Shown here one piece after another: positions 12,658 to 64,000 of a DNA stretch of 64,000 nucleotides. Both the position numbers and the translations under genes were made by a program. The stretch is from the NCBI GenBank assembly GCA_947044365.1, contig OX345637.1:11418576-11482575 (forward strand), given 5' to 3'. How positions within the stretch are numbered: the first letter of the stretch is position 1; each line of letters opens with the position of its first letter. This DNA comes from Petrosia ficiformis. Lineage: Eukaryota > Porifera > Demospongiae > Haplosclerida > Petrosiidae. The notes beneath the pieces are model-generated. The model had not been told where the DNA came from. It was given only the letters and a program-made list of their open reading frames with translations, and made no database searches.

Positions 12658-27088
<14,431 letters not shown>

Positions 27089-35100: not shown

Positions 35101-38100
35101 TCTCTATTGAGTAATGAGTATGTTCTTGTTTTGGTGGTATCTGAATAGAGGACACCTCTCATTTTATTGATGGTGTCTTCATTTGATTGTCTCAAAGAAG
35201 ACACCTGGATAAATTAATCAGAGAATATTTAACCCTTTGTTGTAAGATACATATACACCCTTGTGTCCATATTCTAGGAGTATATATGCAATCCTCAAAA
35301 TAATGTCCAGCAATTGGCCATTTTCTCGATATTTTGGCTCTTTGTGTGGACAAAACTGTATATGACTGTCTGATTAGTTATAAGAATAAAACAAAAATAA
35401 GAACAATAATCCCATAGCAAGGTTAATTGTAAGTCAAGAGCAGTCATGGCCTAGTGGGTTACTTCTGTATCTCATAAGCCATAAATGGGTACAGTGCTGG
35501 TTTTCTGGACAAAATTCACAACTTGCTGGTCAATATTGTTTTGTGTATATGTTTCTGCTGTACACTTTCAAAAACTATTTCAAGCACTGGAACATGTAGG
35601 TCACTCTGAGTGGCAGTCATGATTTTTATTTGACTTTTTTTGTACATGTACAATCAGTGTTTTTGATAAGCTTATATGGTGTGCTATTGGCCCAAAGAGC
35701 TTCTTATTTGGCACTGCACAGTTCTCTCTTCCAGCTATATAGTGGTGCAGTTAATTATGATTATATTGTCACTAACAGCATTGTACAGTGTATGTGACCA
35801 TGTTTGCCAAAATCCATCGTTTTGAGGACATTTTTGCTTAAAAGCTTGTTATTTGGTTGTTTTATTTGTAGGATATCACTGACATTATATGCTCTGTAGA
35901 TATCAAATTTCAGTGACTCCTTTCACAAAATGGCTGAGTAGAAACCATTGATTGATCCTTCAAATGATCAAATTACACAAATGTGACCCAATTTGGGAAA
36001 ATCACACGTTGGCATACAGTGTGTATAATAATTTTGACGAAATGCTTACTATCCAACACTAGCTGTTCAGCCATTCTATACAGGAAGCTAACTACATTTG
36101 GTATTCATGAGGCTGGAGCATTAACTGATCTTCCTGGATACCATATTCTATTTGCTTCCTGTACAAAATAGACAAATAGTGAGTGTTTGAAGGTAAGTAT
36201 TTTGTTCAAAATTATTATGCGTCACAAAATGTGGTTTTCCCAAATCAGGTCACAAATAATTATGGTCTCATATAATAGTAATACTGTATATGATATCTGA
36301 GTTGTGACCTTACCAAACCACCTTTCAACCAGTTTGTGTAGAATTCTATTTTTGTCATGTTGCACATTAATTTATATATCCATGTACAAGTATTTAATGT
36401 CACATGATATTCACATGATATAGGGCGTGAATTCAGTCCTGCAGAGTTATACACAGCATTAGGAGTTATCAGCGTACCAGTATTTTATATTGTAGGTGCT
36501 GGAAGTGCTATATTTTGGATTATAGGTATGTCTATTTGAGTATATACATATACATGCATAATAATAATTATTGTACCTACTAAGATGGCAGTGAAAAAGA
36601 CCACGTGCTAATTAACTTTTTAGATTTCTGAGGCGACTGTGATACTATCATAATCTTTTTGTTTTACTTACATGTACATGTAGCTGAAAATAGGTAGTAT
36701 AATCAATATGGCTAGTTTCAATATGGCTAGTTTCAATATGGCTAGTTTCAATATGGCTAGTTTCAATATGGCTAGTTTCAATATGGCTAGTTTCAATATG
36801 GCTAGTATCAATATGGCTAGTTTCAATATGGCTAGTTTCAATATGGCTAGTTTCAATATGGCTAGTTTCAATATGGCTAGTTTCAATATGGCTAGTTTCA
36901 ATATGGCTAGTTTCAATATGGCTAGTTTCAATATGGCTAGTATCAATATGGCTAGTTTCAATATGGCTAGTTTCAATATGGCTAGTTTCAATATGGCTAG
37001 TTTCAATATGGCTAGTTTCAATATGGCTAGTTACAATATGGCTAGTTTCAATATGGCTAGTTTCAATATGGCTAGTTTCAATATGGCTAGTTACAATATG
37101 GCTAGTTACAATATGGCTAGTTTCAATATGGCTAGTTACAATATGGCTAGTTTCAATATGGCTAGTATCAATATGGCTAGTTACAATATGGCTAGTATCA
37201 ATATGGCTAGTATCAATATGGCTAGTTTCAATATGGCTAGTTTCAATATGGCTAGTTTCAATATGGCTAGTTTCAATATGGCTAGTTTCAATATGGCTAG
37301 TTTCAATATGGCTAGTATCAATATGGCTAGTTTCAATATGGCTAGTTACAATATGGCTAGTTTCAATATGGCTAGTATCAATATGGCTAGTTTCAATATG
37401 GCTAGTTTCAATATGGCTAGTATCAATATGGCTAGTTTCAATATGGCTAGTTTCAATATGGCTAGTTACAATATGGCTAGTTACAATATGGCTAGTTTCA
37501 ATATGGCTAGTTTCAATATGGCTAGTTTCAATATGGCTAGTTACAATATGGCTAGTTTCAATATGGCTAGTATCAATATGGCTAGTTTCAATATGGCTAG
37601 TTTCAATATGGCTAGTATCAATATGGCTAGTTTCAATATGGCTAGTTACAATATGGCTAGTTTCAATATGGCTAGTTTCAATCCAGTGATCTCTGTTCTG
37701 TACAGTACCTTGGATATCCTGATCTCGTTCCAAACCAGGAGCAGATATTGTTTGCGTTATTGTGTACTACAAACTGACACACCCTTTAGTGACCACATGT
37801 TATTTTGCATGTTAATTAGCACATGTATAAACAGTTGAATGCAGGCTCTTTTTCTCTGCCATCTAAAAAGCCCGGGTATGAGGGTAGTATACATGTACGT
37901 GTATGTACATATATGTACATCACAGTACATGTGTGTGTACATGTACTTGTGTGTGTATGCATACATTGTACATGTAGTGCTGCTAGAAAATCTGTAGTAC
38001 TTGACATTATTAAGTTTACATACTATCACTGTACTTCGAATGTACTACACAGTAATACACCTTAGTGCTATGCTATCACATACAAATGTAAAGGAAATTC

Positions 38101-43799: not shown

Positions 43800-44281
43800 G
43801 TGAGAGAGGGCTGGCAACCCAATTTTCAATGTAACTAGCGGTTACTAGCCCACCACTTCAACAGTAACTCCATTATATATTTTTATATATAATATTATAT
43901 AGGTAGTGTCTATACTGTAAAAGGTAATGGCTTATAAACCCTCACCCACTTAGGCAAAGTGGATTGTTATTGTAATCATCTTGCGTGTGTATTTACAAAA
44001 CTATTCACATTAATTCATGAATATACTATTGAATACAAATCAGAAGAATAATTAAATTTGTCCATAATTATGATAAGAATTTGACAGAATATTCACACAC
44101 ATTCAATTGTTGATACTGTGGTTGAAGTAATGGATGAGGTAAGTTTTTTATTTCACTGGTTTTCCTAACAACTGTGTTCATATTCCTCCTGTCTGTAATT
44201 ACATCACAATACATTCAGGAACTTACTGATGGTATTTATCTTTTAATAATAATAATTATATTATTTGAATTATAATTTTAG

Positions 44282-45188
44282 AAGGTGAGTTGATCTGTTA
44301 ACTATATATCTATGATGAATAATAATTATTTCTCCACTCGTATTATGTTTTCAAAAATAATAGAAGGTGAGTAAACAATACGCTCTGAATGATTGATCAT
44401 TATTTCTTCATTTCAATTCTTGTTTTCATCATAATGAATTCACCTATAGATGGTAAGTATATCAAAATTAATATATAGACTCGACTGGTAATTAACTATA
44501 TTTATTTTCTCATTAATAATGTGATTTAGGAGGTGAGTAGATCTGTTTATTATAGCTATACAATATTATAGTAATAATTTATTCATCCATTCAAATTTGT
44601 GACCAAATATGAATATCACTGAACTTTATTAGATGGTTAGTAAATATTAATATTAAAATATTGACTTGAATTATTAATATTTTCATAATATGTTTTTGAC
44701 TTCTTTTTCATGATGTGATAAAAATATCAGCTGGTTAGTATTTAGAAATTCAATGTTGTATAATTTTATATTTCTTTTCATTTCCTATTTGTGATGAATC
44801 AACTAGAAAGTGAGATACTTAAATTCCATTTCTAATATAATTGTGATTAAAGTATCCACTAAATCCTTTTATTTGTCTTCTTTCCGTCTGAATTATCCTT
44901 CTCATATTGTGCTGGGGTTACATGTTACTTTAATTTGCCTTTAATCCTGACACTTCCATTTTATATTGTGACGACATGTTACTGTGAATCTACTAGATGG
45001 TGAGTATAATGAGACTGTTAACATAATTATGAATATTTATTAAATCTCTCAATTTGCCTTTTAATCCTGTCTATATGACTCTTCCATTCATTTATATTGT
45101 GATGACATGTTACTATGAATCTACTAGCTGTGAGTATAATGAGACTTTTAACACAGTTATGAACATGTTACTATAAATCTACTAGAGG
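44282..45188 (+). other. Microexon series of Roco copy 1
   Basis: Each site has an AG acceptor, three bases, and a GTGAGT, GTAAGT or GTTAGT-like donor. The cassettes are AAG (44282-44284), AAG (44364-44366), ATG (44450-44452), GAG (44530-44532), ATG (44633-44635), CTG (44731-44733), AAA (44807-44809), ATG (44997-44999) and AGG (45186-45188). One further site at 45128-45129 has only two bases (CT) and would shift the frame if used. The 9-base exon present in copies 2 and 3 has been deleted here, near 44219-44222. Confidence 0.65.
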
Positions 45189-48153
45189 GTGAGTATAATG
45201 AGACTGTTAACTAATTATGAATAATCATTAAGTAGTTTATTAAAACTTGCATGATAATAATCCACAAATCTATACAGGCATTGTGACATTTGTACTACAC
45301 ATTATATATAGTCCATACTTGTTTCTTGAAATAATACCCTGGCAACATTAATTTTTGGGAGGTATGGTTACCATAGTTACACCATCGTTTGAAAGGAGGT
45401 TTATATAACATTTACGAACCAACAATCTAATTAATGACATGGTATAAATATAATTATATTCTTGTACCTTTTTTCTGAAACAGGGTGAAGAAGCAATGAA
45501 GGAAGGTATGATGTGAGTGTAGAATAGATCATGTATGTTAATAATGATGTTTGGTAAGTTAGTTGATTATATGTGATGTAATTATGTAAGCCATGATGCT
45601 TATATTCTTTCATTCAGAAGAACATAGTCTATCAAAAGTGTTCAAAATAACAATAGTGCATTTTTTTTACACTAATTGTAACCAAATTTAGTTACAATAG
45701 GTTTATTATTGTGTAAACACTATTATCAAATGTTTATTGCTGTTTTTGTATAGCTTATAGAATTGCACTCTCTCATGGGGAGCTTGATGTAGCATATGCT
45801 CGTATCATGCTACTTGGTCCAGGTGGTGTTGGGAAAAGTAGCCTTAAACGTGGACTTATGAGCTTACCATTTGATGCGAAAATGAACAGTATCATTGTTG
45901 CTGATTGTCATTCAGTATGACACGAATGGGCCCAAGCAGGAGACCATTGGAAGGAGATAACCCCAGATGATGAAATAGCTCAATTGCTAGCCATTGTCTA
46001 TAACAACCCAAGAGATAGTCAAGGACATTTGAATACAACAGCTGCTACTACTCTATTTACAGGAGACATGATACTATCTAGTGGAAACATTCCACAAGGT
46101 TATGTGGAGAAAGTAAAATGAATTTCAGTGACTGAAATTTTCTCAAAAGCAATGGAAATAGCCAAGAGTATGCCGCACTGCTTTCAGTCAGCTAAAACCA
46201 CAACCATTCCTTCACATTTGGGATTGTGGGGGTCAACCAGTGTTCTTGGAGGTGCTACCAGCCTTTCTCACCTCTCATACCATGTTTCTCCTCCTTTTTG
46301 ATGCTTCTACTGATTTCAATACCCGAATTGCTGTCGGTAAAGCCTGTGAGATCAAAGCTGAGGATGTTCCGAAAGTCTTAAAGTTCTACCATGAACTGGG
46401 AGTGGTATTGTACTACCCTCATATCAAGGGACTTGGAGATAAAGTTATTCTCAGTTCAAAATGGTTTGTGGACTGCCTAGGGAAAGTCCTCACTCTTGAG
46501 GGAAGAGAAACATATGACGACATAAGGGATATGTGGGATCTTCTTAGGGAGAAAGGCATTCTTTTACAACCTCTATATGCTGCAGCCTGGAGAGGATGTG
46601 AGGGTGTTGAACCAGAAGAGATGATTCAACTTCTGGTTCATTTTTGTTTAGCTGCTGAAGTCAAAACGGAACTGTACTATAATCCCAATCTGAAGCAGTT
46701 TTTTGTACCTGCTGTGCTGCCACCATTCAATGGTGATCCGTCATTAGCCATTACCCCTGGATATCAGCTGAAAGCTACCCATCTACACATCACATTTCGC
46801 ACTGGGTATGTAATCCCTGGTTTCTTCACTCGTCTTGTCACTTCCATGACTAAATCTTCGCAATGTAATCTTCAATTCGATGAAGATATTTTTCGTAATC
46901 GAATCATGTTCCAGTTTGATGTGAATGATGTGACGCTTACCGAACTACCAAAAGCAATCCAAATTGATGTGTTACGATATACTCCACATTCTTTTAAGGT
47001 AACTCCGATACATAAAAGTTGTGAATCTTTACAGGTAAAGTTGATTGTAATATATAATTCATTTGTAATAATGTACCAGAGTTCTCACTAGACTAGTAAA
47101 AGAACCCTTTTATTGGATTATGTTACTAACACTCATCTCAGCTCAATGATATTAATATTGCTACCTTCCTTGAACAATAGCAGAAGGATTCTTACAATAA
47201 TAGTTATGGCAATAATAATTACACTTTTATGGGTATGGTATTTTGTATATAGGTTATGCACGGTTTATGTGGGATTACAGTTATTTGGGTCCTGAGGGTG
47301 AAACTCAAGGAATCCAAATAACCATTTCATAGTGGAAAACGCGGCTGAGTTGATTATATATTACTTCCACTTTACAAACAGTTTATCATTAAACATATTC
47401 ATATTTTACCGGGATCCAAATCAATGTAGTGTTAAACATCAATTTCCCTGAAACTGCTGGTGAGAACACTGTAACGTATTATAATAAATATACAAAATAT
47501 TAAACTTTCACTACACAGATTCTTCTTGAGTCCTGTTGTGAACAAGCTAAAGAATGTCTACCATTTATTGGTATACCAATAGAGAAAAAATTCAGATTTA
47601 TATGCCAAGGAAAGGAATGTAATTCTTCCTCTGATCCCCATTATCTACTCCATCCTCCTAATGGTATTCACATCTCTTGTGAGCGTAAGAAAAGAGGGTT
47701 TCGAATTCTAACCTGCGAGGAAGCTTACTGGTTCCCTGTGGATATTGATGCAGAAGAAGCATCAGCTGGTACTCCATATATTCCACTCAAGTTATTCCAC
47801 CTAATACTCTACAATGTAAGTAAGAATATTGAAACGAAAATTGTGTGTAATTTATAATATGTTAATAATTATGGGAAAAAAAGGCAGCTGCATGTATATT
47901 TTAAAATTATATTAACTAGTGATGACAAATCAGTCCAATATGGCTGAGGGGTATATCCACATAAACCTCTGAACACCAGCAGGTGGTATATATACCACAT
48001 CAACTAGACATAATATACTATAACTTAACAATTGATTACAACTAACCACATAATTGGTTGCCATGGTAGCATGGTTTATACTAGTCTGGAGAGCTGTTAC
48101 TCCATACATACAATATATATCTGTACAGCTAATGCTTTATGGATTTATATTGT

Positions 48154-48253
48154 TATATTCACAAATATCGATTGGTTATCGCTTATCAGTATCGGCTGAT
48201 AAGTTATCAGCTGATATTGATAAGCGATAACCAATCCGATATTTGTGAATATA
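48154..48253. repeat. 100-bp near-perfect palindrome
   Basis: TATATTCACAAATATCG at the left pairs with CGATATTTGTGAATATA at the right (one mismatch). The inner GGTTATCGCTTATCA pairs with TGATAAGCGATAACC. It lies in an intron of Roco copy 1 that has no equivalent in copy 2. It is probably a small fold-back element. Confidence 0.8.
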
Positions 48254-48847
48254 GGGATAACTGTTAGAAGATAACTGGTTATTGGAACATTGGTTAATAT
48301 CAATATTGGTGCATCACTAATTATAGAACTGTTTTACAATTTTAGTTTTCTAAATTATTTTTCAATAATTTTGTTGCAAGAATTATGATATAAGATGATT
48401 ATGATCATAAAGATATTTATGTTCCACAGACCATTCACCACCTGAAGTAGATGATAAACCTTTAACAGGTAATAATTATTAATTCATCTCTCTCATTGTG
48501 TATCATCAAAATGTGTATCAACTCCAAAGGAGGAAAATGTATGCTCTGAAGCAATGAAATATGTACATGTACTTATGAATTATTATCACGTTATTTTAAA
48601 TTTTAGTGTATTACAGAATCACACCCTTTCTTGTATACTACATGTATATACAGTGTATTCTGTTAATATTTTAAAATTTATTCATAAATACTTTGCCATT
48701 TATATTACAGTCTATTTGAATTGCATTCCCTCTTTATAAATAAAGCATGTCAGAATAAATGTAATGAAATTTAATTTAGTGTAAATTTCATGAATACACA
48801 CCACCGTGTATATTAGCCTTATTCATGATATTAATTATTATTCTGTA

Positions 48848-48882
<35 letters not shown>

Positions 48883-49689
48883 CTGATGATCTTCTACCAG
48901 TATTGAGAGCCACTGTTGAAGTTAATAACTGGTATAGTCTAGGTCTCGAACTTCGTATTCTTCATCATGAGCTTGAGAAAATTCAATCAGATGGTCGTGA
49001 TATACAAGATTGTCAACGCAAGATGATATTAAAGTGGCTGGATACCGGATGTGCTACTTGGTCGATACTTATTGAAGCTCTAAAGAGTCCCTTAATTAAC
49101 AAAGTAGCCGTTGCAGAAAAGATTGCCAAAGATCGTCCTCGTAAGTATGAAATCACAGCATATCTAAACAATATCCAAGGTTTCACATACAGGATTTGTT
49201 GGTTGTAGGGGTGTACAAGCCTTACTGTTACATGGAAGGGTCTATGGGGAATTTTGGAAATCTATAGAGTATAAATGTCATTCATAAGATCGCATCTGAT
49301 AAATTTTTAACTGAGATATTTAGAGAGGGGAGGATCTTTCTGGCCATTTTTGAAACCCTGGTATTAAATACATATTCGTCCATATAATGTAACATTAGTA
49401 TTGTAATATCCCTATAAACAGGTACACAAGAACATTAACTCTTTTTCATTTGTGAGGAGATTATTTTTTTTTGTCAATGCATACCGGATAATATAATTAT
49501 AATTTCATTATCATTAATATTGTGTGTTGGGCTTTCTTTTGATTTTCCTTTTGTTATTACTTTAGACTTAATTCTTATGTATTCCTTTAATTATGATTAT
49601 GTTCAACTTGATTTTAATGTCCGTTTTATTTTGATTTTAAATGTATTTCCATTTGATTTCGACTTGACATGTATACATGTATTACTTGA

Positions 49690-49870
49690 TTTAAATGTTT
49701 TGTATTCCATTTGATTTTATTACTTGATTTAATGTATTTTAATGTATTGTATTCCATTTGATACATGTATTACTTGATTTAATGTATTTTAATGTATTGT
49801 ATTCCATTTGATTTTGATACATGTATTACTTGATTTTAATATACTTTAATGTATTAATTTTGTTTGTTTT
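49690..49870. repeat. 36-bp minisatellite, short array
   Basis: The units contain TGTATTCCATTTGATACATG and TATTACTTGATT. The same minisatellite lies at the matching place downstream of copy 2 (57890-58170), where it has expanded. Confidence 0.8.
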
Positions 49871-50428
49871 TGATATGTATTCCATTTTATTTTAATATTG
49901 TAATTACTTAATTTATTGTATTTTTGATTTTGATTATGTTCTATTCGAGTAAAAATGTATTCCATCTGATTTTTGATTAATTTTCTTTTGATCTGTATCC
50001 ATCTGTTGTTGCTAATGTATTATAAATTTAATCAAATAATAACTTTATTAAGTTACATACATGTAGATCATAAGAAGTGTCAGTCTAAACACTCAAACAT
50101 GTATACAATTATGTACTGTGTTCCAGATATGCTACTAATCACGATACATGTATGTACTACTAATCACATGATACATGTATGTACTACTAATCTGCACTAT
50201 CATTAAAATGTTGTACACACATGCTATAGTACGTAAAATTAATAAATCATAATAATCATGTCAATTTACATCATTCCTGATTATGTATACTACATATAAT
50301 ATACTCCGTGTGAGAGTACATACCATTTTATCAACATCTGTATACAGGATTTAATTAAATATAATAGTGTGGATTTATTACACAATGAATATTAATATTG
50401 AGAATAGTGGAAATTCCTAAAATAATAA

Positions 50429-51300
50429 TTAAATGTTGAGTGGAGGTAGAGATGGGGTATTAATAGGAGGACAATGATGATAATCAAATACTTCAATAAA
50501 CCCTGTCTCGTCTTCCCTTTCATTTTCTATATCATCTTTTTTGATTTCTACCTTAAGCTTCCCCTCGTCTGAGATTATTACATCTTCTGTGACTTCATTG
50601 TCATCACAGCTAAATGAAAAATAGGCTGGAGGAAGAAGAGGAGGAGTGGAACAAGAAAGAGGTACTGAATGGTGAATGTTATTAAGAGGAGGAGTGGGAC
50701 AAGAAAGAGGTACTGAATGGTGAATGTTATTAAGGGGAGGAGTGGGACAAGGAAGAGGTACTGAATGGTGAATGTTATTAAGGGGAGGAGTGGGCAAAGG
50801 GAGAGTGTGAACATTATTTGAGAACAGAGAAATGGGAGGAGTTGAATTACTGGAGATAACAGTAGTCGGGTGTGGTAAAGAAAATAAAGGTGTAATATTA
50901 CATGTTGTGTTAAAAGAAACAGCATGAAGAGGTAGACTAGGAGGTGGAGGAGGAAGGAGTGGTATTTGTGGAGGTGTGAAAATTGGAGGTGGAAATGGAG
51001 GACAGGGGAAGACATCTTGAGGTATACATGGAGGAGGGAAAGGAGGAAAGATTGGAGGAGGTGTGTTCATGAGTAATGGTCGAGGAGGAGGCTTAGAGAG
51101 AGAGTTTGATAGAGTGGTTTGAAACGTTGGAACAGAAATTGAAAACAATGAAGAACTAGATGACTGTTCTACAATATTTTCTAGTGGAGGCATAGTATTA
51201 TCTGAAGTGTTCTCTTCATCCATTTGATCTTCATCTTTCTTTTGTATTTTGACTGGTACTAAATTAACTCCTATGTACATACCCAGTAGTCGTATGCCAT
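50429..51300 (-). CDS. Proline-rich protein of unknown function, copy 1, frameshifted at the N-terminal side
   Basis: The minus-strand frame encodes an acidic/Ser stretch (QMDEENTSDN), a Pro-rich core with PPIFPPFPPPCIPQ, three tandem 17-residue repeats (TPPLNNIHHSVPL type, 51-base DNA units) and an acidic C-terminus with DETGFIEVFDYHHC. Upstream, 51470-51264 continues the same protein in another frame; a single extra base near 51272, relative to copy 2, separates the two. I do not recognise a family. It lies tail-to-tail with Roco copy 1 and head-to-head with Roco copy 2, which starts about 200-360 bases away. It could be a real gene with an intron or a pseudogene. Confidence 0.5.
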
Positions 51301-51537
51301 GATGTCGCCTTAAACTTGTGGCACAGAGACTTCATGCATGAACTGAACAAATCCATATCCTCTATGTTCCCCTTGTCATATGGAATGAAAACCAGGCTCA
51401 CTGGACTGAAACTGGTACAGGCTTCAGGATCCATACATATGTCAAGTACAATCTGGCGGGAGATTGTCAAAAAGGGGCGAGGCTGACACCAGTGGTGAGT
51501 TCGGGAATAGTTACTTATTAGTTTGCTCCTATTTCAG

Positions 51538-51598
51538 AAAAAGACTGAAAGTATTTGGAATATCTCCTATAAGAGTTACTTCTTACAGGTGATAAAAT
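51538..51598 (+). other. Probable non-coding 5' exon of Roco copy 2
   Basis: Acceptor ATTTCAG and donor TTACAG/GTGATA bracket 61 bases with no useful frame. It is nearly identical to 60134-60185. An upstream donor lies at 51494/51495. Confidence 0.45.
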
Positions 51599-51832
51599 TA
51601 TAATTTGCTATTGTTTTCCTCCTCAGTTGTGTAGTGCATTCGTGATCTTTCATATAATTTGGTATGTACAATAATTATTATAATTATATATATATATATA
51701 TATATAATTATTACAATAAAATTGAAGGCAAATCAGAAGAATAATTTTTTTACATAATTAATTTCAACTCTGACAGAATATTCACACATTCAATTGTTGA
51801 TACTGTGGTTCAGTATAATTATAATTGAAGTA

Positions 51833-54800
51833 ATGGATGAGGTAAGTTTTTTATTTCACTGGTTTTCCTAACAACTGTGTTCATACTCCTCCTGTCTGTA
51901 ATTAACATCACAATAAATTCAGGAACATGTGGTAAGTGTATCAACTATAGTACTACTGATGGTATTTATCTTTTAATAATAATAATTATATCATTTGAAT
52001 TATAATTTTAGAAGGTGAGTTGATCTGTTAACTATATATCTATGATGAATAATAATTATTTCTCCACTCGTATTATGTTTTCAAAAATAATAGAAGGTGA
52101 GTAAGCAATACTCTCTAAATGATTGATCATTATTTCTTCATTTCAATTCTTGTTTTCATCATAATGAATTCACTTATAGATGGTAAGTATATCAAAATTA
52201 ATATATAGACTCGACTGGTAATTAAATGTATCTTTTTTGTCATTAATAATGTGATTTAGGAGGTGAGTAGATCTGTTTATTATAGCTATACAATATAGTA
52301 ATAATTTATTCTTCCATTCAAATTGTGACAAAATATGAATATCACTGAACTTTATTAGGAGGTGAGTAAATATTAATATTAAAATATTGACTTGAATCAT
52401 TAATTTTCATAATATGTTTTTGACTTCTTTTTCATGATGTGATGAAAATATCAGCTGGTTAGTATTTAGAAATCAATGTTGTATAATTTTATATTTCTTT
52501 TCATTTCCTATTTGTGATGAATCAACTACAAAGTAAGTTACTTTTTAATTCAAGCACTCTATTCATTACTAATATAATCATAATTATATTGAAGTATCCA
52601 CTAAATCTTTTATTTCTTTCCGTCTGAATTATCCTTCTGGTATTGTGCTGGGGTTACATGTTACTTTAATTTGCCTTTAATCCTGACACTTCCATTTTAT
52701 ATTGTGATGACATGTTACTGTGAATCTACTAGCAGGTGAGTATAATGAGACTGTTAATATAATTATGAATATTCCTTTTTATATTGTGATGACATGTTAC
52801 TGTGCATCTACTAGACGGTGAGTATAATGACATAATTATGAATATTCATTAAATCTCTCTATTTGCCTTTTAATCCTGTCTATATGACTCTTCCTTTTTA
52901 TATTGTGATGACATGTTACTGTGAATCTTCTAGTTGGTGAGTATAATGAGACTGTTAACATAATTATGAATATTCATTAAATCTCTCTATTTGCCTTTTA
53001 ATCCTGTCTATATGACTCTTCCTTTTTATATTGTGATGACATGTTACTGTGCATCTACTAGGCGGTGAGTATAATGACATAATTATGAATATTCATTAAA
53101 TCTCTCTATTTGCCTTTTAATCCTGTCTATATGACACTTCCTTTTTATATTGTGATGACATGTTACTGTGAATCTACTAGTGGGTGAGTATAATGACATA
53201 ATTATGAATATTCATTAAATCTCTCTATTTGCCTTTTAATCCTGTCTATATGACTCTTCCTTTTTATATTGTGATGACATGTTACTGTGAATCTTCTAGT
53301 TGGTGAGTATAATGAGACTGTTAACATAATTATGAATATTCATTAAATCTCTCTATTTGCCTTTTAATCCTGTCTATATGACTCTTCCTTTTTATATTGT
53401 GATGACATGTTACTGTGAATCTTCTAGTTGGTGAGTATAATGAGACTGTTAACATAATTATGAATAATCATTAAGTAGTTTATTAAAACTTGCATGGTAA
53501 TAACCCACAAATCCGTACAGGCATCACTATTAATTTGTTACTGTGACATTTGTACCATACTATATAGTCCATACCTGTTTCTTAAAATAATACCCTGGCA
53601 ACATTAATTTTTTGGGAGGTATGGTTACCATAGTTACACCATCGTTTGAAAGGAGGTTTATATAATATTTACAAACCAACAATCTAATTAATGACATGGT
53701 ATAAATATAATTATATTCTTGTACCTTTTTTTCTGAAACAGAGTGAAGAAGAAATGAAGGAAGGTATGATGTGAGTGTAGAATTGATCATGTATGTTAAT
53801 AATGATGTTTGGTAAGTTAGTTGATTATATGTGATGTAATTATGTAAGCCATGATGCTTATATTCTTTCATTCAGAAGAACATAATCTATCAAAAGTGTT
53901 CATAATAACAATAGTGCATTTTTTTACACTAATTGTAACCAAATTTAGTTACAATAGGTTTATTATTGTGTAAACACTATTATCAAATGTTTATTGCTGT
54001 TTTTGTGTAGCTTATAAAATTGCACTCTCTTATGGGGAGCTTGATGTGGCATATGCTCGTATCATGCTACTTGGTCCAGGTGGTGTTGGGAAAAGTAGCC
54101 TTAAACGTGGACTTATGAGCTTACCATTTGATGCGAAAATGAACAGTACCATTGTTGCTGATTGTCATTCAGTACGACACGAATGGGCCCAAGCAGGAGA
54201 CCATTGGAAGGAGATAACCCCAGATGATGAGATTGAAGAAATAGCTCAATTGCTAGCCATTGTCTATAACAACCCAAGATATAGTCAAGGACATTTGAGT
54301 ACAACAGCTGCTACTACTCTATTTACAGGAGACGTGATACCATCTAGTGGAAACATTCCACAAGGTTATGTGGAGAAAGTAAAACGAATTTCAGTAACTG
54401 AAATTTTCTCAAAAGCAATGAAAATAGCCAGAAAAATGTGTTACACTGTTAACAGTCGGCTAAAACCACAACCATTCCTTCACATTTGGGATTGTGGGGG
54501 TCAACCAGTGTTCTTGGAGGTGCTACCAGCCTTTCTCACCTCTCGTACCATGTTTCTCCTCCTTTTTGATGCTTCTACTGATTTCAATACCCGAATGAGA
54601 TCAGTGCGATACCAATATGGAAATATGATTACAGAGGGCGAGGCGAGCATGACTACCCTTGAGCTTATGGAAGGTTGGATGTCTAGTATTCATGCCAATC
54701 TTGTGAGGCATGATGACAAGGGTGCTGTACTGGAGTATCCTCGAATTATCACTGTTGGTACTCGGGGAGACAAATTGACAGCAGGAGGAAAGGATAGAGT

Positions 54801-57604
54801 TAAGAAGACTCTAGAAGAACGACTACAACGCCAACCTTTCTCTGAAGTACTGAGTAAAGAGAAGGTCCTCGTCGTTGATAATACCACATCAGGAAGGGGA
54901 GAAAAAGAAGATGAAACTTACAAATGTTTGAGGCGAGAAATTGGTGATTTTACCTCCAAGAAGCTGAATGTTAGAACACCAATAACTTGGGTTCTATTTC
55001 GTAAAGTCTTACAAATGCTTGTGAAGGAATCGAAAAATACCATTCCCCTCAGTGAAGCAGTTGCTGTCGGTAAAGCCTGTGAGATCAAAGCTGAGGATGT
55101 TCCAAAAGTCTTAAAGTTCTACCATGAACTGGGAGTGGTATTGTACTACCCTCATATCAAGGGACTTGGAGATAAAGTTATTCTCAGTCCAAAATGGTTT
55201 GTGGACTGCCTAGGGAAGGTCCTCACTCTTGAGGGAAGAGAAACATATGACGACATAAGGGATATGTGGGATCTTCTTAGGGAGAAAGGCATTCTTTTAC
55301 AACCTCTGTATGCTGCAGCCTGGAGAGGATGTGAGGGTGTTGAACCAGAAGAGATGATTCAACTTCTGGTTCATTTTTGTTTAGCTGCTGAAGTCAAAAC
55401 GGAACTGTACTACAATCCCAATCTGAAGCAGTTTTTTGTACCTGCTGTGCTGCCAACATTCAATGGTGATCCGTCATCAGCCATTACCCCAGGATATCAG
55501 CTGAAAGCTACCCCTCTACACATCACATTTCGCACTGGGTATGTAATCCCTGGTTTCTTCACTCGTCTTGTCACCTCCATGGCTAGATCTCCACAATGTA
55601 ATCTTCAATTCGATGAAGATATTTTTCGTAATCGAATCGTGTTCCAGTTTGATGTGAATGATGTGACGCTTACCGAACTACCAAAAGCAATCCAAGTTGA
55701 TATGTTACGATATATTCCACATTCTTCCAAGGTAACTCCGATACAGAAAAGTTGTGAATCTTTACAGGTAAAGTTGATTGTAATAATTCATTTGTACCAG
55801 GGTTCTCACTAGACTAGTAAAAGAACCCTTTTATTGGATTATGTTACTAACACTCATCTCAGCTCAATGATATTAATATTGCCACCTTCCTTGAACAATA
55901 GCAGAAGGAATAATTCTTACAATAATACTTATGGGGCATTAATAATTACACTTTTATGTAATTTAAATGAAGCATACATGTGTGCATATAACCACTTATG
56001 GATATTGTATTTTGTATATAGGTTATGCACGGTTTATGCGGGATTACAGTTATTTGGGTCCTGAGGGTGAAGCCCAAGGAATCCAAACAGCTGTGATTAA
56101 CATTTTAAAACCATTTCATAGTGGACACCCGGCTCAGTTTATTGTATATAACTTCCACTTTACAAACAGTAATTAGTTTATCTTCATATTTTACCGGGAT
56201 CCAAATCAATGTAGCGTTAAACGTCAATTTTCACTCTACTATTTGAAACTAGTGGTGAGAACACTGTAACTTAGTATAATAAACTTTATAAATATACAAA
56301 ATAATAAAATTTCAATACACAGATTCTTCTTGAGTCCTGTTGTGAACAAGTTAAAGAATGTCTACCATTTATTGGTATACCCATAGAGAAAAAATTCAAG
56401 TTTATATGTCAAGGAAAGGAGTGTAATTCTTCCTCTGATCCCCACTATCTACTCCATCCTCCTAATGGTATTCACATCTCGTGTGAGCGTAACAAAAGAG
56501 CGTTTCGAATTCTAACCCGTGAGGAAGCTTACTGGTTTCCTGTGGATATTGATGCTGTAATAGCAGAAGAAGCATCTAGTAGTACTCCACAAGGTATGAA
56601 CATTAATGAAAATAGAGTATAATACATGTGACCTAACGTTTGGAAAAGGACACTTTCCCGTAAAATTAATACTTACTTTTAATTACATGTCATTTTGTAC
56701 AAGAAGTCAATCTATATCTAATAATATTAATAATATATAGGTATTCTTGGATACCATATTTCATTGACTTCCTGTGGGAATGTTGATCAAACATACTTTG
56801 CAGAAAATAATTATGTTACTTTATCATGTGTTGTGTAATTATAATGATTACATTCCCACATGTAATTATAACATCCCTACTCTTAATGCTGAAATTATTT
56901 TACTCTATAATCTTTAAATTTACATAATTTTCAGTTAGCAGTGTTTTCCCTGGAAAAAAAGTAGAGTGGTGATTATATTAGCCCCACCCAAAGCTCCATC
57001 GATTTCAAACAGACAACTCTCCTTGCTGACACTCTTCATCTCTTTCCTTTCTCTTTGAAAAACAGCACCACCATTTTAAATTAATAATGCAATTACAAAA
57101 AAAAGGAAAACAAAAAGAAAACAAAGTAGCACACTCTAGGGAGAACACTGCCTAGCTTTTGGGAAGGGACACTGATAGGAGTATCAATGGATTTTATAAT
57201 TTAGGAATGAATGAGTATCATTTTTCTATACAGCTACAGTTACAAGTGCTCAGAGTAAATGCCGTCCTTTGCTGAGGAAATCTCCAGAGAGACAAGATGT
57301 TTACAAGTTGCTCAAAAAGAAGTCTACTTACTGGGATGATTTTGCCCGAGATCTCGATATAGATTTCAATTTTCGTGAAGAGTTAAAACGAGAAGGTTCT
57401 ACAACAACAGGTGGGAGCAAGTTAGAGAGAGTTATCATCAAATGGATAGATTCTGAGTCCTCTGATGTAACATGGAATAACCTCATTGAGGTTTTGGAAG
57501 GATTGGAGTTTCTAGACATTGCACGAGAAGTAAAAAGTTACCTGGAAAGAGAAGAAGTGGTTAAGAAATATAGTCGAAAAGATGACTATACTCGTTACCA
57601 GTAA
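51833..57604 (+). CDS. Roco-family GTPase with C-terminal death domain, copy 2 (intact)
   Basis: Exons are 51833-51841 (MDE), 51923-51931 (EHV), 3-base microexons between 52012 and 53430, 53742-53763 (22 bases), 54011-55767, 56323-56593 and 57234-57604, giving roughly 820 residues. The phases agree at every junction; for example the 22-base exon ends in G, which joins CT of the next exon as Ala. Roc features are the P-loop GPGGVGKSS, DCGGQ (G3) and TVGTRGD (G4 position). COR follows, with VLKFYHELGVVLYY and SPKWFVDCLGKV. The last exon folds like a death domain (TYWDDFARDL, then WNNLIEVLEGL). There is no kinase domain, so the protein resembles the DAPK1/MFHAS1 side of the Roco family and not LRRK. 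Its probable role is nucleotide-gated signalling through death-domain partners, which is inference. Confidence 0.88.
52012..53430 (+). other. Microexon series and tandem microexon array of Roco copy 2
   Basis: Three-base cassettes between acceptor AG and donor GTRAGT or GTTAGT are AAG (52012), AAG (52094), ATG (52180), GAG (52260), GAG (52359) and CTG (52455). The tandem array follows: CAG (52733), ACG (52815), TTG (52934), GCG (53062), TGG (53181), TTG (53300) and TTG (53428). Tandem units are 119 or 128 bp. The flanks (CTACTAG or CTTCTAG before, GTGAGTATAATGA after) are almost identical, while the first two bases of the cassette differ. The site matching AAA of copies 1 and 3 (about 52529) has lost its acceptor (ACTACAAAG in place of ACTAGAAAG) and is probably dead. 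Confidence 0.72.
56624..56830. mobile_element. MITE family A, copy in a Roco intron
   Basis: The left end ATGTGACCTAACG is followed by the family core (AAGAAGTCAATC, TCTTGGATACCATATTTCAT and GACTTCCTGT). Copy 1 has no equivalent insertion at this intron. Confidence 0.5.
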
Positions 57605-57624
57605 CTAACTAACGTTAGTGTGTT

Positions 57625-57780
57625 TGTGTGTGCTTAGTATATTATTAGTGTATTATTAGTATATTATTAGTGTATTATTAGTGTATTATTAGTGTATTAT
57701 TAGTGTATTATTAGTGTATTATCAGTATACTATTACAGTATACTACTAACAATACACTAATAATACACTCTAATATTAGT
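57625..57780. repeat. (GTATTATTA)n-type minisatellite with inverted tail
   Basis: Tandem TGTATTATTAG units immediately downstream of the Roco copy 2 stop are followed by the complementary AATACACTAATAATACAC. The transcript could form a hairpin near its 3' end. Confidence 0.7.
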
Positions 57781-57889
57781 AGTATATTTATGTGTATGTA
57801 TGATCCTTATTCTTTTCATGATTATTAATGTATTAATGTATTGTATTGTAATACGTATTCCATTTGATTTTGATTTTAATACATGTATC

Positions 57890-58170
57890 CATGTATACAT
57901 GTATTACTTGATTCTAATGTATTGTATTCCATTTGATACATGTATTACTTGATTCTAATGTATTCTAATGTATTGTATTCCATTTGATACATGTATTACT
58001 TGATTTAATGTATTGTATTCCATTTGATACATGTATTACTTGATTCTAATGTATTGTATTCCATTTGATACATGTATTACTTGATTCTAATGTATTGTAT
58101 TCCATTTGATACATGTATTACTTGATTTAATGTATTTTAATGTATTGTATTCCATTTGATTTTGATACAT
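57890..58170. repeat. 36-bp minisatellite, about 7 units
   Basis: It is the expanded version of the array at 49690-49870, in the equivalent position of the segmental duplication. Confidence 0.85.
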
Positions 58171-58747
58171 GTATTACTTGATTTTAATATACTTTAATGT
58201 ATTAATTTTGTTTGTTTTTGATATGTATTCCATTTTATTTTAATATTGTAATTACTTAATTTATTGTATTTTTGATTTTGATTGTGTTCTATTCGAGTAC
58301 AAATGTATTCCATCTGATTTTTGATTAATTTTCTTTTGATCTGTATCCATCAGTTGTTACTAATATCATTAATCAAATAATAACTTTATTAAGCTACATA
58401 CATGTAGATCATAAGAAGTGTCAGTATAAACACTCAAACATGTATATGATTACGTACTATGCTCCAGATATGCTATATAATCACATGATACATGTATGTA
58501 GTACTAATAATCTGTACTATCAATAAAATGTTTTACACACATGCTATAGTACGAAAATTAATAAATCATAATAAATTTGTCAATTTACATCATTCCTGAT
58601 TATGTATACTACATATAATATACTCCGTGTGAGAGTACATACCATTTTATCAACATCTGTATACAGGATTTAATTAAATATAATAGTATTGATTTATTAC
58701 ACAATGAATATTAATATTGAGAATAGTGGAAATTCCTATAATAATAA

Positions 58748-59751
58748 TTAAATGTTGAGTGGAGGTAGAGATGGGGTATTAATAGGAGGACAATGATGAT
58801 AATCAAATACTTCAATAAACCCTGTCTCGTCTTCCCTTTCATTTTCTATATCGTCTTTGTTGATTTCTACCTTAAGCTTCCCCTCGTCTGAGATTATTAC
58901 ATCTTCTGTGACTTCATTGTCATCACAGTTAAATGAAAAATAGGCTGGAGGAAGAAGAGGAGGAGTGGGACAAGAAAGAGGTACTGAATGGTGAATGTTA
59001 TTAAGAGGAGGAGTGGGACAAGGAAGAGGTACTGAATGGTGAATGTTCTTAAGGGGAGGAGTGGGACAAGGAAGAGGTACTGAATGGTGAATGTTATTAA
59101 GGGGAGGAGTGGGACAAGGAAGAGGTACTGAATGGTGAATGTTATTAAGGGGAGGAGTGGGCAAAGGGAGAGCGTGAACATTATTTGAGAACAGAGAAAT
59201 GGAAGGAGTTGAATTACTAGAGATAACAGTAGTCGGGTGTGGTAAAGAAAATAAAGGTGTAATATTACATGTTGTGTTAAAAGAAACAGCATGAAGAGGT
59301 AGACTAGGAGGTGGAGGAGGAAGGAGTGGTATTTGTGGAGGTGTGAAAATTGGAGGTGGAAATGGAGGACAGGGGAAGACATCTTGAGGTATACACGGAG
59401 GAGGGAAAGGAGGAAAGATTGGAGGAGGTGTGTTCATGAGTAATGGTCGAGGAGGAGGCTTAGAGAGAGAGAGTTTGATAGAGTGGTTTGAAATGTTGGA
59501 ACAGAAATTGAAAACGATGAAGAACTAGATGACTGTTCTACAATATTTTCTAGTGGAGGCATAGTATTATCTGAAGTGTTCTCTTCATCCATTTGATCTT
59601 CATCTTTCTTTTGTATTTTGACTGGTACTAAATTAACTCCATGTACATACCCAGTAGTCGTATGCCATGATGCCGCCTTAAACTTGTGGCACAGAGACTT
59701 CATGCATGAACTGAACAAATCCATATCCTCTATGTTCCCCCTGCTTGTCAT
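58748..59751 (-). pseudogene. Proline-rich protein of unknown function, copy 2, frameshifted
   Basis: It is nearly identical to 50429-51300 but has four 17-residue repeats, not three. A 2-base expansion of the AG run near 59463-59474 splits the frame into 59751-59434 and 59437-58748. A further 4-base difference near 59740 alters the upstream end. In this copy the junction that is broken in copy 1 (near 59640) is intact. Each copy is therefore damaged at a different place, which suggests that the ancestral gene was intact at duplication. Confidence 0.6.
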
Positions 59752-60027
59752 ATGGAATGAAAACCAGGCTCACTGGACTGAAACTGGTACAGGCTTCAGG
59801 ATCCATACATATGTCAAGTACAATCTGAATCTACATGTCTGTCTTCTCAATCCACATTGGTTCTCAATCGGGCTCCCCACCCCTTCATTAGTCATATATA
59901 ATTATATATAATTATATAATTTTATAATTTTATAATTATATAATTATGCGATATGCGCGCGATATTATAGTTATATTTATAATTATAGTACGTACATGTA
60001 CATATAGCCTCTCCCCGGCCCCTAGGC

Positions 60028-60071
60028 CCTTTTGACAATCGGACGGCGCCGGCGGGAGATTGTCAAAAAGG
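60028..60071. promoter_or_regulatory. GC-rich inverted repeat between divergent transcription units
   Basis: CCTTTTGACAATC (60028-60040) pairs with GATTGTCAAAAAGG (60058-60071), flanking a CGGCGCCG palindrome. This is the only GC-rich island between the minus-strand proline-rich gene and Roco copy 3. In the equivalent place at copy 2 (51451-51483) only the right arm remains. It is possibly a bidirectional promoter element, or the end of an insertion. Confidence 0.4.
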
Positions 60072-60133
60072 GGCGAGGCTGACACCAGTGGTGAGTTCGG
60101 GAATAGTTACTTATTACTTTGCTCCTATTTCAG

Positions 60134-60185
60134 AAAAAAGACTGAAAGTATTTGGAATATCTCCTATAAGAGTTACTTCTTACAG
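60134..60185 (+). other. Probable non-coding 5' exon of Roco copy 3
   Basis: It is equivalent to 51538-51598, with the same acceptor and donor. The upstream donor is at 60090/60091. Confidence 0.45.
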
Positions 60186-60438
60186 GTGATAAAATTATAA
60201 TTTGCTATTGTTTTCCTCCTCAGTTGTGTAGTGCATTCGTGATCTTTCATATAATTTGGTATGTACAATAATTATTATAATTATATATATATATATATAT
60301 ATATAATTAATTATTTTTACAATACTATTGAAGGCAAATCAGAAGAATAATTTTTGTACATAATTAATTTCAACTCTGACAGAATATTCACACATTCAAT
60401 TGTTGATACTGTGGTTCAGTATAATTATAATTGAAGTA

Positions 60439-63400
60439 ATGGATGAGGTAAGTTTTTTATTTCACTGGTTTTCCTAACAACTGTGTTCATACTCCTCCTG
60501 TCTGTAATTACATCACAATAAATTCAGGACCATGTGGTAAGTTATCAACTATAGTACTATATTGATGGTATTTATCTAATTATCTTTTAATAATAATAAT
60601 TATATCATTTGAATTATAATTTTAGAAGGTGAGTTGATCTGTTAACTATACTATCTATGATGAATAATAATTATTTCTCCACTCGTATTATGTTTTCAAA
60701 AAAAATAGAAGGTGAGTAAATAACACGCTCTAAATGATTAATCATTGTTTCTTCATTTCAATTCTTGTTTTCATAATGAATTCACTTATAGATGGTAAGT
60801 ATATAATTATATAGACTCCACTGGTAATTAACTATATCTATTTTCTCATTAATAATGTGATTTAGGAGGTGAGTAGATCTGTTTATTATAGCTATACAAT
60901 ATAGTAATAATCTATTCATCCATTCAAATTCTTGTGTATCACTGAACTCTATTAGATGGTTAGTAAATATTAATTTTAAAATATTTACTTGAATTATTAA
61001 TATTTTCATAATATGTTTTTGACTTCTTTTCATGATGTGATGAAAATATCAGCTGGTTAGTATTTAGAAATTCAATGTTATATAATTTCATATTTCTTTT
61101 CATTTCCTATTTGTGATGAATCAACTAGAAAGTAAGTTACTTTAATTCAACAACTCTATTTCTAATACAATCACAATTATATTGAAGTGTTATTTACTCA
61201 CCTTCTTCATTTCAATTCTTGTTTTCATAATGAATTCACTTATAGATGGTAAGTATATAATTATATAGACTCCACTGGTAATTAACTATATCTATTTTCT
61301 CATTAATAATGTGATTTAGGAGGTGAGTAGATCTGTTTATTATAGCTATACAATATAGTAATAATCTATTCATCCATTCAAATTCTTGTGTATCACTGAA
61401 CTCTATTAGATGGTTAGTAAATATTAATTTTAAAATATTTACTTGAATTATTAATTTTCATAATATGTTTTTGACTTCTTTTCATGATGTGATGAAAATA
61501 TCAGCTGGTTAGTATTTAGAAATTCAATGTTATATAATTTCATATTTCTTTTCATTTCCTATTTGTGATGAATCAACTAGAAAGTAAGTTACTTTAATTC
61601 AACAACTCTATTTCTAATACAATCACAATTATATTGAAGTATCCTTTTATTTGTTTTTCATCCTATCTACTAGTGGGTGAGTACAATGAGACAGTAACAT
61701 ACTTAGGAATATTCATTAAATCCTTCTATTTCCTGCTCTTATTGTGATGACATGTTATTGTGAATCTACTAGTCGGTGAGTATAATGAGACTGTTAATAT
61801 AATTGTAAATATTCATTAAATCTTTTAATCCTGTCTATATGACTCTTCTTTGTATATATTGTGATGACGTGTTACTGTGAATCTACTAGTTGGTGAGTAT
61901 AATGACATAATTATGAATATTCATTAAATCTCTCTATTTGCCTTTTAATCCTGTCTATATGACTCTTCCTTTGTATATTGTGATGACATATTACTGTGAA
62001 TCTACTAGTCGGTGAGTATAATGAGACTGTTAATATAATTGTAAATATTCATTAAATTTTTTAATCCTGTCTATATGACTCTTCTTTGTATATATTGTAA
62101 TGACGTGTTACTGTGAATCTACTAGTTGGTGAGTATAATGAGACTGTAACATAATTATGAATATTCATTCAATCTCTCTATTTGCCTTTTAATCCTGTCT
62201 ATATGACTCTTCCTTTTTTTGTATTGTGATGACATATTACTGTGAATCTACTAGTCGGTGAGTATAATGAGACTGTTAATATAATTGTAAATATTCATTA
62301 AATCTTTTTAATCCTGTCTATATGACTCTTCCTTTGTATATATGGTGATGACGTGTTACTGTGAATCTACTAGCTGGTGAGTATAATGAGACTGTAACAT
62401 AATTATGAATATTCATTGAATCTTTCTATTTCCCTTTTAATCCTGTTTATATATATATATATATATGACTCTACCTTTTTATAATTATTATGCTGACATG
62501 TTACTATGAATCTACTAGAAGGTGAGTATAGTAAGACTGTTAACATAATTATGAATATTCATTCAATCTCTCTACATGTATTTGCCTTTTAATCCTGTCT
62601 ATATGACTTCCTTTTTATATTATGATGCCATTTCACTGTGAACCTACTAGGAGGTGAGTATAATGAGACTGTAACATAATTATGAATAATCATTAAGAAT
62701 ATGTCATAATGTAATCAAAAGTAGTTTATTAAATCTTGGATGATAATAATCCACAAATCTGTATAGGCATCACTATTAATTTGTTATTGTGACATTTGTA
62801 CTACACATTATATATAGTCCATACTTGTTTCTTGAAATAATACCCTGGGAAGATTAATTTTTTGGGAGGTATGGTTACCATAGTTACACCATCGTTTGAA
62901 AGGAGGTTTATATAACATTTACGAACCAACAATCTAATTAATGACATGGTATAAATATAATTATATTCTTGTACCTTTTTTTCTGAAACAGTATCAAGAA
63001 GCAGTGAAGGAAGGTATGATACGAGTATAGAATTGATCATGTATGTTAATAATGTTTTGGTAAGTTAGTTGATTATATGTGATGTAATTATGTAAGCCAA
63101 GATGCTTATATTCTTTCATTCAGAAGAACATAGTCTATCAAAAGTGTTCATAATAACAATAGTGCATTTCTTTTACACTAATTATAACCAAATTTAGTTA
63201 TAATAGGTCTATTCTTGTGTAAACACTATTATTCCTAGCTTATGAGATTGCACTCTCTCATGGGGAGCTTGATGTGGCATATGCTCGTATCATGCTACTT
63301 GGTGCAGGTGGTGTTGGGAAAAGTAGCCTTAAACGTGGACTTATGAGCTTACCATTTGATGCGAAAATGAACAGTACCATTGTTGCTGATTGTCATTCAG

Positions 63401-64000
63401 TACGACACGAATGGGCCCAAGCAGGAGACCATTGGAGGGAGATAACCCCAGATGATGAAATCGAAGAATTAGCTCAATTGCTAGCCATTGTCTACAACAA
63501 CCCAAGAGATAGTCAAGGATATTTGAGTACAACCGCTGCTACTACTCTATTTACAGGAGACGTGATACCATCTAGTGGAAACATTCCACAAGGTTATGTG
63601 GAGAAAGTAAAACGAATTTCAGTAACTGAAATTTTCTCAAAAGCAATGGAAATAGCCAGAAAAATGCCTCGCATTGTTATCAGTCAGCTAAAACCACAAC
63701 CATTCCTTCACATTTGGGATTGTGGGGGTCAACCAGTGTTCTTGGAGGTACTACCAGCCTTTCTCACTTCTCGTACCATGTTTCTCCTCCTTTTTGATGC
63801 TTCTACTGATTTCAATACCAGAATGAGATCAGTGCGATACCACTATGGAAATATGATTACAGAGGGCGAGGCGAGCATGACTACCCTTGAGCTTATGGAA
63901 GGTTGGATGTCTAGTATTCATGCCAATCTTGTGAGGCATGATGACAAGGGTGCTGTACTGGAGTATCCTCGAATTATCACTGTTGGTACTCGGGGAGACA
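60439..64000 (+). CDS. Roco-family GTPase, copy 3 (3' end outside window)
   Basis: The start exon is 60439-60447 (MDE), followed by 60528-60536 (DHV), the microexon series, a 22-base exon 62992-63013 and the Roc exon from 63239, which stays open to the window edge. The P-loop reads GAGGVGKSS (Ala in place of the Pro of the other copies). DCGGQ and the start of the TVGTRGD motif are present. The 22-base exon encodes YQEAVKE and joins in phase to the Roc exon, giving AYEIALSHGEL at the junction. The Roc part is intact as far as it can be read and very close to copy 2, so this copy is probably functional. Its C-terminal domain cannot be seen. Confidence 0.82.
60626..62653 (+). other. Expanded microexon series and array of Roco copy 3
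   Basis: Cassettes are AAG (60626), AAG (60709), ATG (60792), GAG (60866), ATG (60956), CTG (61053) and AAA (61129). A duplicated block follows with ATG (61246), GAG (61320), ATG (61410), CTG (61505) and AAA (61581). The tandem array is TGG (61674), TCG (61773), TTG (61890), TCG (62009), TTG (62126), TCG (62255), CTG (62374), AAG (62519) and GAG (62651). That is 21 three-base exons, all with AG acceptors and GTGAGT, GTAAGT or GTTAGT donors. Alternating TCG and TTG cassettes suggest that two-unit blocks of the array were copied together. Confidence 0.72.

Follow-up and report, generated by a model that had tools for sequence, protein, structure and literature searches.

In arthropod Dscam, tandemly duplicated exons that each code for a whole domain are chosen one at a time and diversify a receptor. 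A stretch of 64,000 nucleotides (nt) from the sponge Petrosia ficiformis (assembly GCA_947044365.1, contig OX345637.1, positions 11,418,576 to 11,482,575, hereafter the window) carries tandem genes of the Roco family with arrays of candidate 3-nt exons, each a single codon and called a cassette below, between the start exon and the exon for the Roc GTPase domain. The likeness to Dscam lies in tandem exons that would serve diversity, and the difference is that whole domains are encoded there and single codons here. Dscam arrays are also mentioned in the available text of PMC11378527, which deals with the LRR-ROCO genes of brown algae.

These brown-algal genes share with the sponge genes a Roco GTPase, tandem arrays of small exons upstream of Roc, one unit per exon, diversifying selection on few residues and a proposed role in immune diversity, as far as they are described in the available sections of PMC11378527 and in Zambounis et al. 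2012 as cited there. The algal exons are 72 base pairs (bp) long, each codes for one leucine-rich repeat (LRR), and their alternative splicing is documented in that text, whereas the exons here are 3 nt long, no repeat domain was found (no LRR model among the Pfam matches of the two scanned exons of the second gene copy, the Roc-COR and the last exon), and the gene is of animal type with a Death domain. The brown-algal array is the closest in logic, but its defining exon type is absent from the sponge genes, which were therefore treated as a kind of their own.

Schistosome micro-exon genes (MEGs) also string together very short exons, most of a length divisible by three, and yield variable proteins; in the available text of PMC10526429 the exons measure 6-81 bp, or 3-81 bp according to the abstract, 15 bp being the commonest length, the introns span 0.1-5 kb, the proteins are secreted, and the exons do not form arrays of single codons. 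MEGs consist mainly of short exons, whereas the bulk of the sponge protein is one Roc-COR exon of 585 codons. Microexons of 3 nt that add one amino acid are reported in the accessible parts of PMC7392893 (Drosophila homothorax) and PMC8042270 (Ncam, TnT), where they are described singly, against roughly 10-44 per gene in tandem here. Ratchet points (PMC8605326) and the 1-nt exon of APC11 (PMC4674806) likewise have an acceptor and a donor that nearly touch, and stepwise removal of the flanking introns is likely; according to the text available, ratchet points leave no sequence, and the APC11 exon is single and constitutive. An earlier note on the window had stated that no system of this form was known to its writer, and no description of arrays of one-codon exons was found among the open-licence papers searched, including the available text of microexon papers (PMC8042270, PMC8831610).

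Our reading, to which we assign a probability of about 0.72, is that phase-0 arrays of about 10 to 44 predicted one-codon exons between the start exon and the Roc exon of many Roc-COR(-Death) genes are spliced stepwise into a variable N-terminal peptide.

Structure of the cluster and its cassettes

The three tandem genes that the earlier note had recognised are real, but they are half of a cluster of six copies, the first copy is broken, and the arrays are common to much of the family. The cassette counts of 9, 13 and 21 claimed for the three window genes were reproduced, and counts of 44, 26 and 18 were obtained for copies 4-6, which lie downstream on neighbouring stretches of the same contig (about C2:11488000-11520000). 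Under a strict donor, copy 4 had 40 cassettes; when the donor had to end in T, copy 1 had 8, while copies 2 and 3 were unchanged. The Roc exons of the six copies were placed at 45822, 54079, 63307, 75313, 85970 and 97405 on the scale of the window, and the spacing of cassettes in the window's cluster was 74-278 bases.

The start exon encodes MDE in all six copies, and in copies 4-6 it has undergone synonymous changes that keep MDE (ATGGACGAG, ATGGACGAA). A 22-base exon was present in all six copies, and its join to the Roc exon, translated for copy 2, was in frame; both exons and the phase of the join thus agree with the first description. The 9-base exon (EHV or DHV) was found in copies 2-6 and has been lost from copy 1. 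Copy 1 is also the one whose Roc frame is broken, through stops and a deletion; the Roc frames of copies 2-6 were open. The predicted N-terminus of copy 2 reads MDEEHVKKMEEL. Pfam matches of the big exon of copy 2 were PF08477 (44 bits) and PF16095 (56.4 bits), that is, Roc then COR, and its last exon matched Death (PF00531, 28.3 bits). Homologues of the last exon were present in copies 2-6; the evidence for the Death domain concerns the window cluster.

The first block of each array in the cluster consists of seven cassettes (KKMEELK-like) that are near-identical in all copies and whose spacers are mutually unlike, and the later cassettes stand mostly in tandem units of about 119-128 bases. 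A helix had been suggested for the encoded residues; judged from the predicted peptides, it would fit the conserved first block better than the variable one, which in copy 4 reads, for instance, MMGGINMRPMWW. Copy 4 has in its array (70376-74660 on the scale of the window) a repeat of higher order, each period of which takes in about 11-12 units (MMGGINMRPMW, repeated); duplication of whole blocks is therefore a further way in which arrays grow.

Cassettes were identified with the motif AG-NNN-GT(A/G/T)AG(T), so that each has an acceptor and a donor at its ends and, with 3 nt, falls under the limit of 30 nt for microexons. Because the search admits only the donors GTGAGT, GTAAGT and GTTAGT (337, 83 and 14 of 434 cassettes, respectively), the constancy of the motif is by construction, and the evidence lies in count and length. 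Dinucleotide shuffles (300 per array) of the three window arrays gave mean counts of 0.03-0.08 and never more than 1. When the length k between acceptor and donor was varied (AG-N{k}-GT(A/G/T)AGT), the same three arrays together contained 42 matches at k=3 and at most 2 at any other k in 1-40; the 17 matches at k=0 are due to AAG and GAG codons, whose letters overlap with the motif. In a background of 230 kb outside arrays from the same genome, read on both strands with a clean upstream zone and leaving out a motif-bearing minisatellite locus (L023), k=3 occurred 3 times against a mean of 2.2 for k 1-60.

Twelve divergent arrays, two of which (C4 and C6) were extended upstream, were used for the test of length. 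With at least 40 AG-free bases upstream, 274 sites had k=3 and 15 had any other k from 0 to 60, three of these being 9 long. No site with k=0 and 40 AG-free bases upstream, as expected of a ratchet point, was found in the 12 arrays, and zero-length ratchet points were rejected on the value of k. An AG-free zone of at least 40 bases preceded 402 of 411 cassettes, against 194 of the 1999 remaining AGs of the regions that hold them. Depletion was seen for codons that would supply a rival acceptor (CAG, 1 observed vs 12.9 expected) or a rival donor (GTN, 3 vs 28.1), but not for AAG+GAG (45 vs 40.5) or CAA+CGA (12 vs 12.5).

The motif search returned 442 matches, 8 of which were dropped for an AG within 30 bases upstream, leaving 434 cassettes. 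These comprised 43 codons for all 20 amino acids, with no stop, and none of the 442 matches was a stop either. A looser donor added one TAA match on C14, located 8 bases after the AG of another cassette and overlapping the donor of that cassette, which was taken as an overlap. TAA+TGA never occurred, although permutation within arrays predicted 8.0 for 433 cassettes (no instance in 5000 permutations), 6.1 for the 286 contexts that are distinct (P 0.0002) and 3.3 for the 151 cassettes that remain when each codon is counted once per array (P 0.018). When the reading was shifted to nine other offsets, between 5 and 87 of the 433 sites showed a stop triplet. Three sites of 2 or 4 nt were found in cassette-like context: one, of 2 nt, beside an open Roc exon, and two beside broken Roc genes, with 2 nt in copy 1 and 4 nt next to the Roc fragment on C1. 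At C2:6158k, matches of 4 and 34 bases were unlike the units by eye, as were those of 28 and 33 bases at C2:15587k. Exact length, AG exclusion, depletion of competing sites, absence of stops and presence in 14 of 16 paralogues (below) strongly support the proposal that the sites form an array of 3-nt exons.

The third base was G in 231 of 434 cassettes over all arrays read; the remark that it is almost always G holds for this cluster and not for all arrays. The donor context of the cassette differs by subfamily: NNT codons with GTAAGT donors were favoured at C1:41965k and C1:14773k, and NNG with GTGAGT in the window.

Variability of the codon and distribution in the family

The hypervariability of the codon is an addition to what the earlier note reported. 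In 18 tandem units of the window, entropy was 1.66 and 1.90 bits at the first two cassette bases and at most 0.65 bits, mostly 0, at the other positions from -7 to +17. The mean pairwise difference per base was 0.56 in the codon vs 0.063 outside it for the 85 units of the six copies, and 0.56 vs 0.033 for the 67 units of copies 4-6. Twenty units that are identical at all other aligned positions carried six codons (GGG, ATG, ACG, GCG, ATA and AAT). On a tree of copies 4-6, the three codon columns required 7, 8 and 5 changes (total 20), whereas the 107 other columns needed 0.42 on average and 5 at most; the tree was built from all columns including the codon, and this count is therefore conservative. 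Of the 15 sense NNG codons, all but GTG were present among these 85 units (14 codons), and the stop TAG was likewise absent.

Other homogeneous arrays behaved alike. In the 20 units of C2:15587k, mean upstream entropy was 0.02 bits vs 1.58, 1.94 and 0.29 at the three codon positions; the corresponding values were 0.37 vs 1.83, 1.74 and 1.19 for C3:7562k, 0.44 vs 1.52, 1.83 and 1.72 for C4, and 0.61 vs 1.95, 1.91 and 1.16 for C6. As a control, an unrelated 66-bp minisatellite (L023 5330-5930) with AG-NNN-GTGAGT in 10 units had 8 CGG, 1 GGG and 1 CGA. Where change in the codon outpaces that in the intron around it, a mere relaxation of constraint is insufficient, and selection for change or a locally raised mutation rate is needed. 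We infer that the hypervariability reflects diversifying selection or targeted mutation.

A genome-wide search for Roc exons, in which 75 of 485 candidates were scored, gave at least 87 matches on eight contigs (C1, C2, C3, C4, C6, C9, C13 and C14). Upstream DNA was examined for 16 divergent members (41-82% identity), and 14 of them had arrays of at least 4 cassettes; the array with 4 (C2:6158k) was read with 2500 of 6000 bases N. Stretches of N adjoin two Roco arrays (2500 and 5000 bases). When the reading was extended upstream, the totals were 37 matches for C4, 36 for C6 (with N gaps) and 32 for C1:41965k. By eye, spacer types were alike in the window cluster, C14, C3:11162k and C1:10866k, and further types were shared by C6 and C2:15587k, by C4 and C3:930k, and by C1:41965k and C1:14773k; spacers of some subfamilies were mutually unlike. 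At C2:8206k, C1:10866k and C1:41965k (23, 32 and 30 cassettes), spacers had diverged from unit to unit, with a mean upstream entropy of 1.68, 1.38 and 1.54 bits, respectively.

A genome-wide scan for two cassettes gave 284+381 places vs 151+399 for a reversed control, totals that prove nothing on Roco-specificity because simple repeats inflate both. Among the first 100 places listed, 40 were on C1, and 27 of these were followed, no more than about 7 kb downstream, by a Roc exon or a fragment of one; of the remaining C1 places among those listed, 4 were one minisatellite and 9 were simple repeats or single matches. Viral contigs were also searched, with no relative and no motif found.

Proposed read-out and competing explanations

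Under our reading of stepwise splicing, the short introns would be removed one after another by intron definition, and each splice would rebuild the donor for the next and leave one codon behind, in a manner like recursive splicing. Most cassettes would be joined in genomic order into a peptide of about 10-50 residues at the N-terminus, ahead of the GTPase domain, while the arrays would grow by unit and block duplication as selection diversifies the codon. Frequent use of the cassettes is suggested by consensus donors and the absence of stops at every position; we think that most cassettes are included and that inclusion of subsets is possible. In a signalling protein with a death domain, the peptide might act as a variable segment for recognition or assembly, and the setting may be immunity or the recognition of self; this is the weakest step and was drawn by analogy. 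In other Roco proteins, N-terminal parts act as sensors. For the splicing itself there is a mechanistic precedent in the constitutive 1-nt exon, for which the authors of PMC4674806, in the text available, favour intron definition combined with recursive splicing, a model close to the one proposed here.

A bolder version is offered tentatively, at somewhat under even odds: a hypervariable peptide may be written one codon per exon, read fully or in cell-specific subsets, and used as the recognition segment of a death-domain GTPase, with codons diversified by selection or dedicated mutation, so that in an immune or self-recognition repertoire the exon and the codon would be one and the same unit. 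If one-codon splicing is real, the smallest unit of exon shuffling would be a single codon, spliceosomes could remove dozens of consecutive short introns flanking 3-nt exons, gene architecture would have a new lower bound, recursive splicing would become a peptide-writing device, and an early-branching animal would possess an unrecognised diversification system. Exons of 3 nt are easily missed by gene annotation, and similar arrays may therefore exist unseen elsewhere.

Several points weigh against stepwise splicing into a variable peptide. We know of no precedent for the splicing of some 40 consecutive 3-nt exons. When residues 1-60 of the predicted N-terminus were compared with 5.8 billion predicted proteins, 3 matches and no spliced protein were found, and two of the matches (P0002, P0004) look like open reading frames of unspliced contigs; by eye, none of 22 relatives examined, out of 871 predicted-protein matches, extended upstream into the predicted exons. 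The absence of TAG is confounded because CAG is depleted too, for which reason TAA+TGA was relied on instead. That test is weakened in turn by a mild depletion of TTA+TCA, sense codons of the same TNA shape (2 vs 5.9, P 0.037; in the collapsed sets 2 vs 5.2, P 0.08, and 2 vs 2.6, P 0.51). AAA+AGA were enriched (38 vs 21.0 expected by permutation) for no apparent reason, and both deviations mean that codon shape is constrained for other reasons too. Cassettes within an array are duplicates, and effective samples are therefore smaller than the counts, which is why collapsed tests are also given. The array on C9, beside an open Roc exon, has a 2-nt site; the other 18 arrays beside open Roc exons had no 2-nt or 4-nt site resembling cassettes. 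Detection was based on the motif, and decayed cassettes were not counted. The downstream phase-0 exon was clearly located only in the window cluster and C14. Two members on C13 had no array in 2.1 kb (one cassette at C13:2509946, none at C13:2404434) and may represent the ancestral state or a loss; their identities were 51% and 41%. The hypervariability was seen only in homogeneous arrays and could be a mutational hotspot; in diverged arrays (e.g. C2:8206k, C14 and C1:10866k) the flanks were nearly as variable as the codon, and C3:930k had only GAA and CGA in 11 near-identical units.

Among the alternatives, the one we take most seriously, although we consider it unlikely, is combinatorial alternative splicing, in which the single-codon exons are real and a different subset is used per cell or transcript, giving each gene a very large isoform repertoire; this was the idea of the earlier note, with an upper bound of 2^21 variants for copy 3. 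Arrays reach 44 cassettes, their 3-nt length lets subsets keep the frame (apart from the C9 site), and the exon arrays of brown-algal ROCO genes are alternatively spliced according to the available text of PMC11378527; uniform consensus donors and the lack of stops nevertheless suggest that cassettes are included often and not rarely, and an ordered, mostly complete read-out explains the data equally well. Rather less probable is that the hypervariability stems from mutation targeted at, or local to, the cassette, and that selection removes only stops and splice-damaging codons. For type-B units a hairpin at the cassette was considered, by eye, as a possible hotspot of this kind. The excess is indeed limited to the bases that the two splice sites enclose, in several repeat families whose sequences differ by eye, yet all four bases occur at position 1 (A 41, T 19, G 13, C 12) and position 2 (T 32, G 25, C 18, A 10), and the 66-bp minisatellite with the same motif has a nearly constant codon. 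In the type-B units of the cluster, moreover, all 13 of 85 codons with a third base other than G encode Ile, Asn or Asp, which counts against mutation alone because no NNG codon encodes these residues; the rule is local to the type-B units of the window cluster and fails in other subfamilies.

It is very improbable that the arrays are intronic or 5'-untranslated repeats, serving as decoys or recursive-splicing steps, with no codon in the mature mRNA. Ratchet points that join acceptor directly to donor inside long introns are known (available text of PMC8605326), many arrays are tandem repeats, and the stop test is partly confounded; against this, ratchet points are 0-nt whereas the exon here is exactly 3 nt, the lack of TAA and TGA and the rarity of lengths that would break the frame of an intact gene would be unexpected if nothing were translated, and the upstream start exon keeps MDE through its synonymous changes. 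Ordinary repeat expansion that happens to contain AG-NNN-GTGAGT is scarcely credible: many units are tandem (about 119-142 bp) and a minisatellite elsewhere matches the motif, but the spacers of C2:8206k, C1:10866k and C1:41965k are strongly diverged despite 23, 32 and 30 cassettes, and those of some subfamilies have, by eye, little in common. Both chance and a simple expansion of repeats were rejected on the shuffles, the minisatellite control, the diverged spacers and the 230-kb background.

Features of the window

Table 1. Predicted exons of the three Roco copies and other features of the window
Feature	Position	Strand	Remarks
Copy 1 start exon	44130..44138	+	ATG GAT GAG (MDE), then GTAAGT
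Copy 1 array	44282..45188	+	9 one-codon cassettes (KKMEMLKMR); first 44282-44284, last 45186-45188
Copy 1 array, extras		+	2-nt cassette after AG at 45126; donor ending in A after the 44805 cassette
Copy 1 22-base exon	45484..45505	+	GEEAMKE+
Copy 1 Roc-COR region	45754..47034	+	broken by stops and deletion
Copy 2 start exon	51833..51841	+	MDE
Copy 2 9-base exon	51923..51931	+	EHV
Copy 2 array	52012..53430	+	13 one-codon cassettes (KKMEEL QTLAWLL)
Copy 2 seventh conserved cassette	52528-52529	+	lost, AG to AC
Copy 2 22-base exon	53742..53763	+	SEEEMKE+; phase 0 to phase 1
Copy 2 Roc-COR exon	54011..55767	+	open; Roc, Ras and COR-A matches
Copy 2 last exon	57234..57604	+	Death domain (PF00531, E 1.9e-6)
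Copy 3 start exon	60439..60447	+	MDE
Copy 3 9-base exon	60528..60536	+	DHV
Copy 3 array	60626..62653	+	21 one-codon cassettes (KKMEMLK MEMLK WSLSLSLKE); cassettes 3-7 duplicated internally
Copy 3 22-base exon	62992..63013	+	YQEAVKE+
Copy 3 Roc-COR exon	63239..64000	+	open; runs past window end
Kelch-type open frames	3-1040, 7107-8417, 10622-11914	-	three similar frames; Pfam Kelch matches for the middle one
hAT-family transposase remnant	2517-2921	+	C-terminal dimerisation region (PF05699)
Open frame with protein kinase match	21628-22047	-	weak, below curated cut-off
Long minisatellite	36648-37838		open in several frames on both strands (peptides SHIET..., ASFNM...)
Duplicated proline-rich open frame	50429-51331, 58748-59524	-	between Roco copies

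The first of the two proline-rich frames had no Pfam match. The frame with the kinase match is reminiscent of the N-lobe of GSK-3, and the third Kelch-type frame is split over two adjoining frames.

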